A stretch of 64,000 nucleotides of DNA, from contig NZ_CAKZKL010000028.1 in NCBI RefSeq assembly GCF_937123735.1, positions 62,001 to 126,000 on the forward strand, written 5' to 3'. This DNA comes from an uncultured Lentibacter sp. GTDB lineage: Bacteria > Pseudomonadota > Alphaproteobacteria > Rhodobacterales > Rhodobacteraceae. Both the position numbers and the translations under genes were made by a program. The notes beneath the pieces were generated by a model. That model saw only the letters and a program-made list of their open reading frames with translations. It searched no databases and was not told the origin of the DNA. Every line of letters starts with the position of its first letter. Position 1 is the stretch's first letter. Below are positions 13,163-60,614 of the stretch, piece by piece.

Positions 13163-13242
13163 TCGAATTGTGCTGCGCACAATCCGACCAGCTGGGGGCT
13201 TTGCCCCCAGACCCCCAGGATATTTGAGGCAAGAAAAAGGGG
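13163..13242 (+). repeat. Structured intergenic repeat, full three-module copy
   Basis: Module 1 is TCGAATTGTGCTGCGCACAA followed by TCCGACC, forming an ATTGTGC/GCACAAT hairpin. Module 2 is the palindrome CTGGGGGC...GCCCCCAG. Module 3 is ACCCCCAGGATATTTGAGGC plus the tail AAGAAAAAGGGG. It matches copies at 31992 and 50020 module by module, with compensating changes in both stems. It lies between convergent bioY and carD, in the bioY orientation. Confidence 0.85.
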
Positions 13243-21682: not shown

Positions 21683-21722
21683 GGAGCCTCCGGCGGGGAT
21701 ATTTGTAGCAATAAGAAAGAAC
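21683..21722 (+). repeat. Structured intergenic repeat, core-tail copy
   Basis: GGAGCCTCCGGCGGGGATAT is followed by TTGTAGCAATAAGAAAGAAC. The first part forms a GCCTCCGGC-type mini-hairpin instead of the large palindrome; the GGATATTT core and purine tail are shared with the other copies. It lies about 110 bp past pepF, in the same orientation. A degenerate module-1-like sequence (TCAAATTGTGCGCC) sits right after the pepF stop. Confidence 0.75.
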
Positions 21723-21840: not shown

Positions 21841-21930
21841 TTATTGCCCTAAATATCCCGGGGGTGCGGGGGCTGGCCCCCGCCTGTGCCTGTGTGCGGG
21901 GGCTGGCCCCCGCTTGTGCCTGTGTGCCGC
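21835..21930 (-). repeat. Structured intergenic repeat with a tandem palindrome array (30-bp period)
   Basis: Read on the minus strand it has two tandem units of ACAGGCACAGGCGGGGGCCA followed by GCCCCCGC (period exactly 30 bp, starts at 21864 and 21894 on the plus strand), then CCCCCGGGATATTT and the tail AGGGCAATAAGAAAGGG. It lies about 180 bp downstream of the minus-strand esterase, in the gene's orientation. The ACAGG lead is shared with the arrays at 35539 and 37454. Confidence 0.85.
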
Positions 21931-26147: not shown

Positions 26148-26183
26148 GCCTTCGGCGAGGATATTTGGGGCAATAAGAAAGGG
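26148..26183 (+). repeat. Structured intergenic repeat, core-tail copy in opposite orientation
   Basis: GCCTTCGGCGAGGATATTTG is followed by GGGCAATAAGAAAGGG. It fills nearly the whole 47-bp gap between the SPFH gene and the zinc-ribbon gene, but points against their transcription. It is the only clear copy not on the strand of the gene it follows. Its head, GCCTTCGGCGAGGATATTT, matches that of the copy at 45937. Confidence 0.8.
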
Positions 26184-35538: not shown

Positions 35539-35703
35539 ACAGGTTTAACTGGGGGACCAGTCCCCCAGACCACAGGTTTTAGCTGGGGGACCAGTCCCCC
35601 AGACCACAGGTTTTAGCTGGGGGACCAGTCCCCCAGACCACAGGTTTTAACTGGGGGACCAGTCCCCCAGACCCCCTGGGATATTTCTGGCAAAAAGAAA
35701 GGG
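35539..35703 (+). repeat. Structured intergenic repeat with four tandem palindromes (34-bp period)
   Basis: Four near-identical units start at 35539 (33 bp, one T fewer), 35572, 35606 and 35640. Each is ACAGGTTTTAGC or ACAGGTTTAAC plus the palindrome CTGGGGGACCAGTCCCCCAG and ACC. The last runs into CCCTGGGATATTTCTGGC and the tail AAAAAGAAAGGG. It lies 60 bp past the amidase gene, in its orientation, and ends just before the rnpB promoter. Confidence 0.92.
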
Positions 35704-35750: not shown

Positions 35751-36121
35751 CGCGGAAGGCTGGATGGCCGCGGGGGGCTTTTGGGCGCTTCGAGGAAAGT
35801 CCGGACTCCACAAGACAACGGTGCCGGGTAACGCCCGGGCAGGGCAACCTGACGGAAAGTGCCACAGAGAAGAGACCGCTTCCTCACGGGGGAGCAAGGG
35901 TGAAACGGTGGGGTAAGAGCCCACCGGGGGGCTGGCAACAGACCTCGCATGGCAAACCCCGCCGGGAGCAATGCCGAATAGGGACCTCGCTTTAGGCTGT
36001 TTTGGCCTTGAGGTTCGGGTAGGCAGCTAGAGGGGCGTTGGCAACAGCGCTTTTAGATGAATGGTCATCCACTTCGGGACAGCCCGGGGAGACAGAATCC
36101 GGCTTACAGGCCTTCCGCGTG
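35751..36121 (+). ncRNA. rnpB: RNase P RNA, bacterial type A
   Basis: The universally conserved 5' core GAGGAAAGTCCGGACTCCA is at 35792, AGGGTGAAACGGTGGGGTAA in the middle, and the 3' core ACAGAATCCGGCTTAC at 36093. P1 is defined by CGCGGAAGGC (35751-35760) pairing perfectly with GCCTTCCGCG (36110-36119), which sets both ends. RNase P cleaves 5' leaders from pre-tRNAs. The ORFs called across it in both frames are artefacts, except that the last codons of the minus-strand DMT gene overlap its 3' end. No separate strong terminator is seen. Confidence 0.96.
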
Positions 36122-37015
36122 TTTATCTTTATCACTTGTGACGATGTAGAGCCCTGCGAGCAGGAGCGCGGCCCCTGTGAGTTTGAGCGGCGTGGCCGCT
36201 TCACCGACGACGAGCAGCGCGAGCACCCAGGCTGTGAGCGGCTCGGCCAGCGCAAGGGTGACGGCTGTGGAGGCGGGGAGGGCCTTCAGGCCCCAGGTGT
36301 AGAGCGCATAGGCCAGCCCTGTGGCCCCGAGGCCAAGCGCGACGAGCGTGAGCGGGGCTGTGCCTGTGAGGGCCCAGCCCCATGGCAGCAGGAAGAAGAC
36401 GGGTGTTGTGAAGAGCGCCGCGAGGCTGAAGGTGCTCGCGGCGATGGTGGCGGGGGGCGCATGGGCTGTCATGCGCGAGGAGGCCAGAGAATAGGTCGCA
36501 TAGCACAGGCCTGCCGCCGCGGCGAGGGCGAGACCGAGGGGGGCACTGCCGCCGGTTGCGCCTGCGAGCACGAGGGCGCCAGCCCCGACAATGGCGAGCG
36601 CCTGTCCAAAGGCCTTGCGCAGGGAGGGGCGTTGGCGCAGCCAGAGGATGTCATAGGCGGCCACCCAGAGCGGCGCGGAGCCGATGGTGACCGCTGTGCC
36701 AAGGCCGACGCCAGCCAGCGCCACGGCGGCAAAGAAGAGCATGTTATAGGCCGCGATGGCCGCAGCGGCTGTGAAAAGCGCGCGCTTGGGCAGCTGGCGC
36801 AGGGCCGCGCGCGCGGCGGGCTGCAAGGCAGCCAGCGCGATGAGCGCGGCCGCGCCAATCCAGAGGCGGGCCGCGCCCACAACGAGCGGCGCGCGCTCCG
36901 GCGGCAAAAAGCTTTGCAACGTGCCAGTGCTGCCCCAGAGGATGGCGGCGGCGAGCACCGCAAGCGTGGCGGTCAGGGTGGCGGGAGCGCGTGTCATCGG
37001 TGCTTTCTGCTTCAT
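36104..37015 (-). CDS. DMT-superfamily (EamA) transporter
   Basis: About 303 residues from the ATG at 37015 ([19 protein letters not shown]); the ATG at 36997 is equally plausible. Ten predicted helices as two EamA repeats; [19 protein letters not shown] opens repeat one, and [19 protein letters not shown] is a typical repeat-two motif. Substrate unknown. Its final codons and TAA stop (36104-36106) are antisense to the 3' end of rnpB by about 18 bp. Divergent from rpmG. Confidence 0.88.
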
Positions 37016-37453: not shown

Positions 37454-37599
37454 GGTGCAAGGGCGGGCCAGCCCCCACGCGCGGGTGCAAGGGAGGGTTG
37501 CCCCCCACACACAGGTTTAAGTGGGGGCCAGCCCCCACACACAGGTTTAAGTGGGGGCCAGCCCCCACACCCCCGGGATATTTCGGGAAAGAAAAAAAG
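37454..37599 (+). repeat. Structured intergenic repeat with four tandem palindromes (30-bp period)
   Basis: Units begin at 37454, 37484, 37514 and 37544, exactly 30 bp apart. Units 1-2 have GGTGCAAGGG with GGGCGGGCCAGCCCCC or GGGAGGGTTGCCCCCC; units 3-4 have AGGTTTAAGTGGGGGCCAGC and CCCCAC. The last unit leads into CCCCCGGGATATTTCGGG and the tail AAAGAAAAAAAGC. The stretch 37378-37453 before it holds nothing recognisable. It lies between rpmG and the small secreted gene, on their strand. Confidence 0.92.
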
Positions 37600-45330: not shown

Positions 45331-45884
45331 GCTCTTTGGCGCAGCAGAAGGCAGCGGCGCGCCAGGCCGCTTTTGCACGGCGCAAGCTGGCGTTTCAGGC
45401 CGCAGGCGCGGCGCAGGCGGGCTATCTCTCGGAAGTTCTGGCGGGCCATAGGGGCGTGCCCTTGGCCGGGTTTATGCCGATCAGAACCGAGATTGACCCG
45501 CTCCCCGCAATGGCGGAGGCGGCGGCGCACGGGCCTGTGGGCGTGCCGGTTATTCAGGCGGCCGGGCAGGCCCTGAAATTTGCCCTCTGGGAGCCGGATT
45601 GCGCGCTTGTGGAGGGGCCGTTCAAGGCGATGATCCCCGCAGAGCTTGACTATTTTGAGCCGGAAATCCTGATTGTGCCGCTGGTGGCCTTTGACCGCAA
45701 AGGCGGGCGGCTGGGCTACGGGGGCGGATTTTATGACCGCACGCTCGAAGGCTTGCGCACGACACGCGCGACACTCGCGATCGGGTTTGCGTTTGCGGCG
45801 CAGCAGGCAGAGGATTTGCCGCTTGAGGCGACGGACCAGCCATTGGATATGATCGTGACGGAGCGCGGGATTATCACGCTGTGA
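45327..45884 (+). CDS. 5-formyltetrahydrofolate cyclo-ligase
   Basis: 185 residues from the GTG at 45327, overlapping the mgtE stop. FAGYLSEVL-type helices are followed by PLAGFMPIRTEIDPLPAM, and the signature PLVAFDRKGGRLGYGGGFYDRTL, which includes the ATP-binding glycine-rich loop. It converts 5-formyl-THF to 5,10-methenyl-THF in one-carbon metabolism. A 19-bp perfect hairpin begins immediately after its stop. Confidence 0.92.
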   Translation: MSSLAQQKAAARQAAFARRKLAFQAAGAAQAGYLSEVLAGHRGVPLAGFMPIRTEIDPLPAMAEAAAHGPVGVPVIQAAGQALKFALWEPDCALVEGPFKAMIPAELDYFEPEILIVPLVAFDRKGGRLGYGGGFYDRTLEGLRTTRATLAIGFAFAAQQAEDLPLEATDQPLDMIVTERGIITL

Positions 45885-45977
45885 AGCCCTTTTGCAGCGC
45901 GCGCCCACCCGCCCACCCCGCGCGCTGCAAAAGGGCTGCCTTCGGCGAGGATATTTTTTGGAAAGAAAAAGAAGGGG
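45885..45977 (+). repeat. Hairpin with CCCACCC loop joined to the repeat core and tail
   Basis: AGCCCTTTTGCAGCGCGCG (45885-45903) pairs perfectly over 19 bp with its complement at 45919-45937; the loop is CCCACCCGCCCACCC. It is followed directly by GCCTTCGGCGAGGATATTTT and TTGGAAAGAAAAAGAAGGGG. So the large stem takes the place of the usual palindrome module. It starts one base after the cyclo-ligase stop and ends just before osmC, same strand. Confidence 0.9.
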
Positions 45978-45983
45978 AGAGCC

Positions 45984-46454
45984 ATGCACCAGGCACATGA
46001 TTTTGATGCCAAGATCGTTTGGACGGGCAATTTGGGCACGGGGAATGCGACTTATAAAGGCTATGCGCGCAGCTGGGAGGTGCGCACGCCGGGCAAGCCG
46101 GTGATTGCCTGCTCAAACGATCCGCTTCTGGGCGGGGACCCTTCCTTGCACAACCCCGAGGATATGCTGATTGCCGCGCTCTCGGCCTGCCATATGCTGT
46201 GGTATCTGCATCTGGCGCATAACGCGGGGATTGTGGTGCTGGGCTATGAGGACGACCCTGTGGGGCATGGCGAAAGCGCGGCCAGTGGAGCGGGGCGCTT
46301 TGTGGGCGCGACGCTGCGGCCTGTGATCACGCTGGCGGAGGGCAGCGATATTGAGCGCGCGGATGCGGTACACCACGAGATTGCGAAGGTGTGTTTTATT
46401 GCGCGTTCGGTCAATTTTCCGCTGCGGTATTCAGCAAGATACGAGATTGCATAA
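45984..46454 (+). CDS. OsmC/Ohr-family protein
   Basis: 156 residues. MHQAHDFDAKIVWTGNLGTG, then NPEDMLIAALSACHMLWYLH with the Cys of the peroxidase site, and IAKVCFIARSVNFPL, which contains the second cysteine. OsmC/Ohr proteins reduce organic hydroperoxides using the two cysteines. The purine tail of the upstream repeat (GAAGGGGAG) doubles as its ribosome binding site. Confidence 0.9.
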   Translation: MHQAHDFDAKIVWTGNLGTGNATYKGYARSWEVRTPGKPVIACSNDPLLGGDPSLHNPEDMLIAALSACHMLWYLHLAHNAGIVVLGYEDDPVGHGESAASGAGRFVGATLRPVITLAEGSDIERADAVHHEIAKVCFIARSVNFPLRYSARYEIA

Positions 46455-60563: not shown

Positions 60564-60614
60564 CGCCCCCTTTGCGGTGCGCCCACCCACCCGCCCCGCC
60601 CCGCAAAGGGGGCG
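60564..60614 (+). repeat. Hairpin with CCCACCC loop between betC and betA
   Basis: CGCCCCCTTTGCGG pairs with CCGCAAAGGGGGCG over 14 bp (60564-60577 with 60601-60614). The loop, TGCGCCCACCCACCCGCCCC plus GCC, resembles the loop of the hairpin at 45885. Unlike that one, it has no GGATATTT core after it. It begins 6 bp past the betC stop and fills the betC-betA gap. Confidence 0.75.

Follow-up and report, generated by a model that had tools for sequence, protein, structure and literature searches.

A dispersed hairpin family with a constant four-run C loop and locus-specific stems lies after stop codons in Rhodobacteraceae

Results

The hairpin located directly downstream of the 5-formyltetrahydrofolate (5-FTHF) cyclo-ligase gene is a member of what appears to be an undescribed family of elements. 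As judged from the aligned sequences, each member is a locus-specific hairpin of 16-30 bp closed by a loop in which four CCC runs are invariant. The hairpin is a module separate from the tail that follows it at this site, with a distribution, polarity and constraints of its own. The sequence-only reading of the site missed that the loop stays constant from copy to copy while the stem varies, and it missed a second copy in the window, by which we mean the whole stretch of 64,000 nucleotides that was analysed.

The cyclo-ligase gene (ORF 45315/45333-45884, + strand; PF01812, E 4e-26) ends with a TGA stop at 45882-45884, and the first base of the hairpin 5' arm, AGCCCTTTTGCAGCGCGCG (45885-45903, +), follows the stop directly. 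This arm and the 3' arm, CGCGCGCTGCAAAAGGGCT (45919-45937, +), are 19 nt each and 100% complementary, confirming the perfect 19-bp stem that had been read right after the stop. The C-rich loop described between the arms is CCCACCCGCCCACCC (45904-45918, +), 15 nt in length, with four CCC runs separated by 1-nt purine spacers. The covariance model of the family matches 45888-45934 with 66.9 bits. Folded as RNA the hairpin reaches -45.6 kcal/mol (z -3.2), a value equalled in 0 of 200 shuffles, and folded as DNA it has a z of -7.8. Examined as a repeat of its own, the arm CCCTTTTGCAG occurs at or near background level and is not the conserved part.

Downstream of the hairpin are a core, GCCTTCGGCGAGG (45938-45950, +), which holds a small GCC..GGC palindrome common to the tail copies at 21686 and 26148, and a tail module, GGATATTTTTTGGAAAGAAAAAGAAGGGGAG (45949-45979, +), composed of a T6 run (45954-45959) that begins 17 nt past the stem and of a purine stretch. 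The proposal that the hairpin is fused to a core and tail known from other copies agrees with these positions: GCCTTCGGCGAGGATATTT, at 45938-45956, is identical at 26148, carries 2 changes at 21686 and has 8 exact relatives in the genome, and the hairpin indeed stands where further tail copies have different palindromes. The purine tail runs into the ribosome site of osmC, as had also been noticed; GGGGAG (45974-45979, +), the likely Shine-Dalgarno sequence, overlaps the tail and lies 4 nt before the ATG of osmC (45984-46454, +; OsmC-like protein, PF02566, E 1e-10). The gene order at the site includes mgtE upstream of the cyclo-ligase gene and ymdB after osmC, and osmC is the gene after fcl in a probable mgtE-fcl-osmC-ymdB operon.

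The whole genome contains five CCCNCCCNCCCNCCC motifs, all of them capping hairpins of 18-26 bp with different stems. Only three are found on the 396-kb contig of the window, all in the loops of long hairpins whose stems again differ. The second copy in the window (60564-60614, +; covariance-model span 60566-60612, 59.4 bits, E 8e-12) has an 18-bp stem, CGCCCCCTTTGCGGTGCG, with one mismatch, the loop CCCACCCACCCGCCC at 60582-60596 and no tail. Its neighbours are a choline-sulfatase-like gene on one side and a choline-dehydrogenase (betA)-like gene on the other, and the site is probably inside an operon. A sixth genomic copy, whose loop is slightly degraded, precedes a gene called agmatinase-like on the basis of its translation alone. 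The stems of the six copies in G000 are unrelated to one another, indicating that the stem is not conserved within a genome; repeated stems within G068 and within G025 are a partial exception.

The exact 15-mer of the loop occurs 47 times in 101 relatives, with 34 of the occurrences in G068 alone. At 83 distinct exact-loop sites, taken without selection for pairing, the stem score was 10 or higher in 76, compared with a shuffled-flank median of 4.5 and a 95th percentile of 8.2. A gap-free alignment of 38 dissimilar copies displayed twelve invariant C columns, while all 16 stem pairs varied on both sides and 94.9% of the cells were paired, versus 40-52% in slid controls. Because these 38 rows were collected by loop pattern and filtered for pairing, the unbiased figure for the stem is the one from the exact-loop sites. 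Loop-blind surveys of strong hairpins recovered the C-loop type as 4 of 23 hairpins in contig C28, 7 of 14 in 400 kb of G068 (one of the seven being imperfect) and 3 of 10 in 400 kb of G375. The loop spacers are purines throughout the 68 non-redundant copies, two excepted, leaving pyrimidine single-nucleotide spacers on the G strand.

A 23-mer core, CGCGCCCACCCGCCCACCCCGCG, detected 37 stretches across 85,000 species genomes, essentially all of Rhodobacteraceae or close Rhodobacterales. The covariance model found copies in at least 35 members of the family among 196 relatives, and one marginal match outside it; the copy counts per genome that it provides are lower bounds, as no more than 31 candidates were scored in each genome. 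Within the genus the number of copies ranges patchily from 0 to 13, hence no copy is essential. The hairpin at the osmC site is common to G006 only among the relatives examined. In the G006 ortholog two stem pairs have changed in a compensatory way, one from C-G to A-T and the other from C-G to T-A; a loop-closing base and a loop spacer also differ, and every C run is intact. The copy preceding the agmatinase-like gene also occurs in G007. We considered betA as a conserved hairpin site and rejected it, as the loci that could be anchored show no conservation of the site across the family. Hairpins before betA-like starts were seen in other genera as well (L175, L228).

Open-access literature yielded no description of a repeat of this kind and no Rhodobacter terminator or 3'-end study, and a literal search for the loop sequence in 5.39 million papers gave no relevant match. 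Rfam 15 at gathering score matched nothing but RNase P in the window, and a relaxed Rfam 15 search returned chance matches to miRNA-type hairpins, far below threshold. The RNase P RNA gene (class A) is at 35752-36122 (+).

We then consider the genes around the element. Of 67 intergenic copies, 60 have the C-run strand in sense orientation to the upstream gene; counted over all 76 sites the number is likewise 60. The median distance between stop codon and element is about 9 nt. The downstream gene is co-directional at 30 of the 76 sites and convergent at 26. Gene calls redone with a self-trained hexamer caller gave the same picture as the first callers; the gene context of G025, where gene calls were poor with only 7 training loci, was left out. 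A U-tract directly after the 3' arm (at least 5 T of 8 within 12 nt) is present in only 3 of 82 copies, demonstrating that the element is not a canonical terminator, though it is often accompanied by a tail: a TATTT tail lies at most 150 nt downstream in 28 of 82 copies, versus 1 of 82 on the other side.

The tail consensus, GGATATTTNNRGCAANAAGAAAG, has about 102 genomic copies, versus 0 for the reversed pattern, and the tail module is probably the family's general 3'-end signal. In the window, the tail module GGATATTTNNRGCAATAAGAAAG was observed at 13218, 21696, 26159, 35679, 37576, 45949 and 50078 (+) and at 21858 (-), and it is conserved well beyond its T-run. Tandem perfect palindromes of the GGGGGCCAGCCCCC type, spaced by a constant ACACAGGTTTAA-like sequence, are found just before the tail at 35548-35680, 37520-37580 and 21858-21920 (-) of the window. 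Short degenerate direct repeats resembling GGACGTCRTACT were noticed just after a tail module at about 146120-146190 of C28 (L098), and another dispersed palindrome family of the same genome, GGTGCGCA(N)TGCGCACCCTAC, at C28 20909, 344114 and 366865.

The sequence-only reading had taken the element as linking the 3' end of one gene to translation of osmC. The association of the tail with the osmC leader is real: TATTT with an A/G-rich stretch behind it, a block resembling the tail, is located just before osmC in 5 of 6 relatives with the order cyclo-ligase-osmC-ymdB, and is kept even without the hairpin in G002, G004, G005 and G016. As the essence of the finding the link is not supported, given that only G006 has the hairpin at this site and that most hairpins are tail-less. 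Most C-loop hairpins also do not adjoin a ribosome site. It is plausible that the tail supplies the ribosome site of osmC, but this is a local matter, separate from the hairpin family.

Orientation relative to replication was scored using GC skew as a proxy for fork direction. The C-run strand is the strand of positive local GC skew (leading) in 55 of 56 copies from G000, G375, G116, G450 and G025. On the same sequence, the leading:other counts were 745:633 (54%) for genes, 28:18 for U-tract terminators and 61:15 for tail modules; the polarity of the hairpins differs from that of the genes with p 2e-13. C28 has positive skew in every 20-kb block while its genes split 191:186, indicating that the skew there reflects replication and not transcription. 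Neighbouring copies on a contig are co-oriented 56:3 (16 genomes). The polarity in the named 8-kb loci is 35:0, a count in which local skew may partly reflect gene direction. G068, the copy-richest genome, has no polarity (10:8; neighbours 11:6) and weak GC skew. This genome also carries a repeated stem subfamily, AGCGCCCCCGAGCCGCG (L235-L254), mostly between convergent genes.

The mismatches within the stems point to the strand under constraint. Internal mismatches of the C-strand stem in 68 non-redundant hairpins were A.C (28), C.C (12) and T.C (14), giving 54 that contain C; five contain G, and G.T was found once. U-tract terminators of the same genomes displayed the reverse, G.T 24 and A.C 3 (Fisher 2e-11). 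The mismatches are confined to positions 4-11 from the loop and the distal stem is near-perfect. On the opposite strand A.C, C.C and T.C correspond to G.T, G.G and G.A, mismatches that are generally better tolerated. A sense-strand RNA hairpin should resemble the terminator spectrum (24:3), which the C-loop hairpins reverse, arguing against a sense-RNA helix. The usual mutation bias of the leading strand, C to T, would likewise give the opposite of the observed spectrum. The counts thus demonstrate a strand bias of the mismatches, from which we infer selection on a G-strand helix, and the conserved helix appears to be that of the G-rich template strand. The other strand of the loop reads GGGTGGGCGGGTGGG, a G-quadruplex motif under the definition of four runs of at least three G with spacers of 1-7 nt (G4Hunter score 2.33).

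Discussion

The explanation we favour, and put forward tentatively from sequence evidence, is that the element acts as a brake on readthrough, formed by a quadruplex-capped hairpin of the template strand at the 3' ends of genes co-directional with replication. The G-rich strand would be the working structure, serving both as template of the gene just transcribed and as leading-strand template. Opened by transcription or by negative supercoiling, this strand may fold into the hairpin, its loop forming a parallel G-quadruplex, and the capped hairpin would stall a following RNA polymerase just past the stop codon, leading to less readthrough. Since copies are found inside probable operons (before osmC, betA and the agmatinase-like gene), termination by the element would have to be leaky; it may serve as a leaky brake inside operons and as a fuller terminator when the tail is present.

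Polarity could arise via stability. The opposite orientation would place the hairpin on the lagging-strand template or produce G-rich RNA, both of them deletion-prone, and only copies after leading-strand genes would persist. Work in E. coli found (G3T)8 to be 354-fold more mutable when its G strand is the non-template strand, which yields G-rich RNA, than in the reverse orientation, and hairpins to be easily deleted when they lie on the lagging template (PMC7023247). The same study reports little leading/lagging effect for the quadruplex repeats themselves, so that the quadruplex alone does not explain the replication part of the polarity. Counting against the brake are the patchy distribution within the genus and G068, which is without polarity and whose copies lie mostly between convergent genes.

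The main rival of the brake, in our view an unlikely one, is a palindrome born of replication that brings little or no benefit to the cell. A quadruplex on the leading template would stall the polymerase, and the nascent strand would fold back and copy its own 5' arm, such template switching keeping the arms perfect and locus-specific. In E. coli under fork-blocking stress, template switching at quasipalindromes prefers the leading strand (PMC6357072), and such switching has been put forward as a source of hairpins and of their maintenance (PMC8794818). The variable arms, the constant loop, the leading-strand polarity and the location of the mismatches 4-11 from the loop would all be accounted for; taken alone, however, template switching does not explain the strict sense orientation after stops or the bias of A.C over G.T, nor why orthologous sites of G006 and G007 have kept the hairpin. 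The brake and leading-strand template switching are not mutually exclusive. Sense orientation right after stops and a strong RNA fold would also suit a 3' hairpin of the sense RNA, such as an mRNA 3'-end stabiliser, an RNase III site or a protein-binding C-rich loop, and some copies are intercistronic like known mRNA-processing hairpins. We regard this as improbable: an RNA helix tolerates G.U, yet sense G.T mismatches number 1 versus 28 A.C (terminators, 24:3), and a role in the RNA would not account for replication polarity.

Mobility offers another reading, in which a REP-like palindrome is spread by a REP-associated tyrosine (Y1/HUH) transposase on single-stranded lagging-strand DNA. It would fit the patchy copy number (0-13 in the genus and, in G068, as many as 34 exact loops), the repeated stems of G068 and G025, and a strand polarity as in single-strand transposons. 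We consider it quite improbable, as 13 of 14 genomes, most of the copy-rich ones included, gave no Y1 transposase match; with no Y1_Tnp match in these and one borderline match in G419, a RAYT link was rejected. Moreover, the stems are so different that a transposase could recognise the loop alone, and the sense orientation after stops would be left unexplained. Least credible of all, and very improbable, is an ordinary intrinsic terminator whose loop is C-rich by chance. The strong GC hairpin after the stop, and the T6 run at 17 nt past the stem in the osmC-site copy, would agree with it, but a U-tract follows the stem directly in just 3 of 82 copies and the second window copy has no tail. Bacterial inverted repeats near terminators, moreover, generally have variable spacers and conserved arms (PMC13155455), the reverse of a family whose loop is invariant.

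The family shares features with several known systems. REP, BIME and REPIN elements are, like it, short dispersed intergenic 3' hairpins of patchy copy number with proposed roles in termination or mRNA stability. To our knowledge, leading-strand exclusivity is not a REP trait. REPs have a conserved stem sequence, a GTAG-like end and a RAYT transposase (PMC3733652), whereas the C-loop family has a constant loop and varying stems, and no RAYT was found for it in the genomes searched. Intrinsic (Rho-independent) terminators likewise place a GC-rich hairpin shortly after the stop, sometimes with a T-rich tail further on. Unlike them, the C-loop hairpins have no adjacent U-tract and no G.U tolerance on the RNA-like strand, and they carry a 15-nt constant loop and replication polarity. 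The CcsR/cuckoo-type sRNAs are also alphaproteobacterial hairpins with C-rich loops (CCUCCUCCC); they are transcribed and have short stems, whereas the C-loop family has no significant Rfam 15 match and its constraint points to the other strand. The dispersed G-quadruplex repeats of Xanthomonas and Nostoc are similar in repeating a quadruplex-forming sequence in intergenic DNA, but these are simple sequence repeats, whereas the C-loop motif always caps a long covarying hairpin (PMC4692102).

A broader proposal, which we hold to be doubtful, is that the family may represent a new class of chromosomal element. On this view, the strand that RNA polymerase and the leading-strand replisome both read carries a hairpin with a quadruplex cap, which would be tolerated only after genes transcribed in the direction of replication. 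The element would accordingly act in cis as a device of transcription-replication coordination, or be a scar of it, and fold-back replication of the leading strand would keep its arms perfect. The family inverts the usual rule of conserved arms and drifting loops (PMC13155455). If the proposal is right, the template strand, and not the transcript, would carry the working structure of a 3'-end element, and the genomic orientation of the element would obey replication as well as transcription. The Rhodobacteraceae, a culturable family rich in copies, would then be a natural system for G-quadruplex folding at gene ends in living bacteria, and the same system would address quadruplex stability and the origin of perfect palindromes that have different arms and the same loop.
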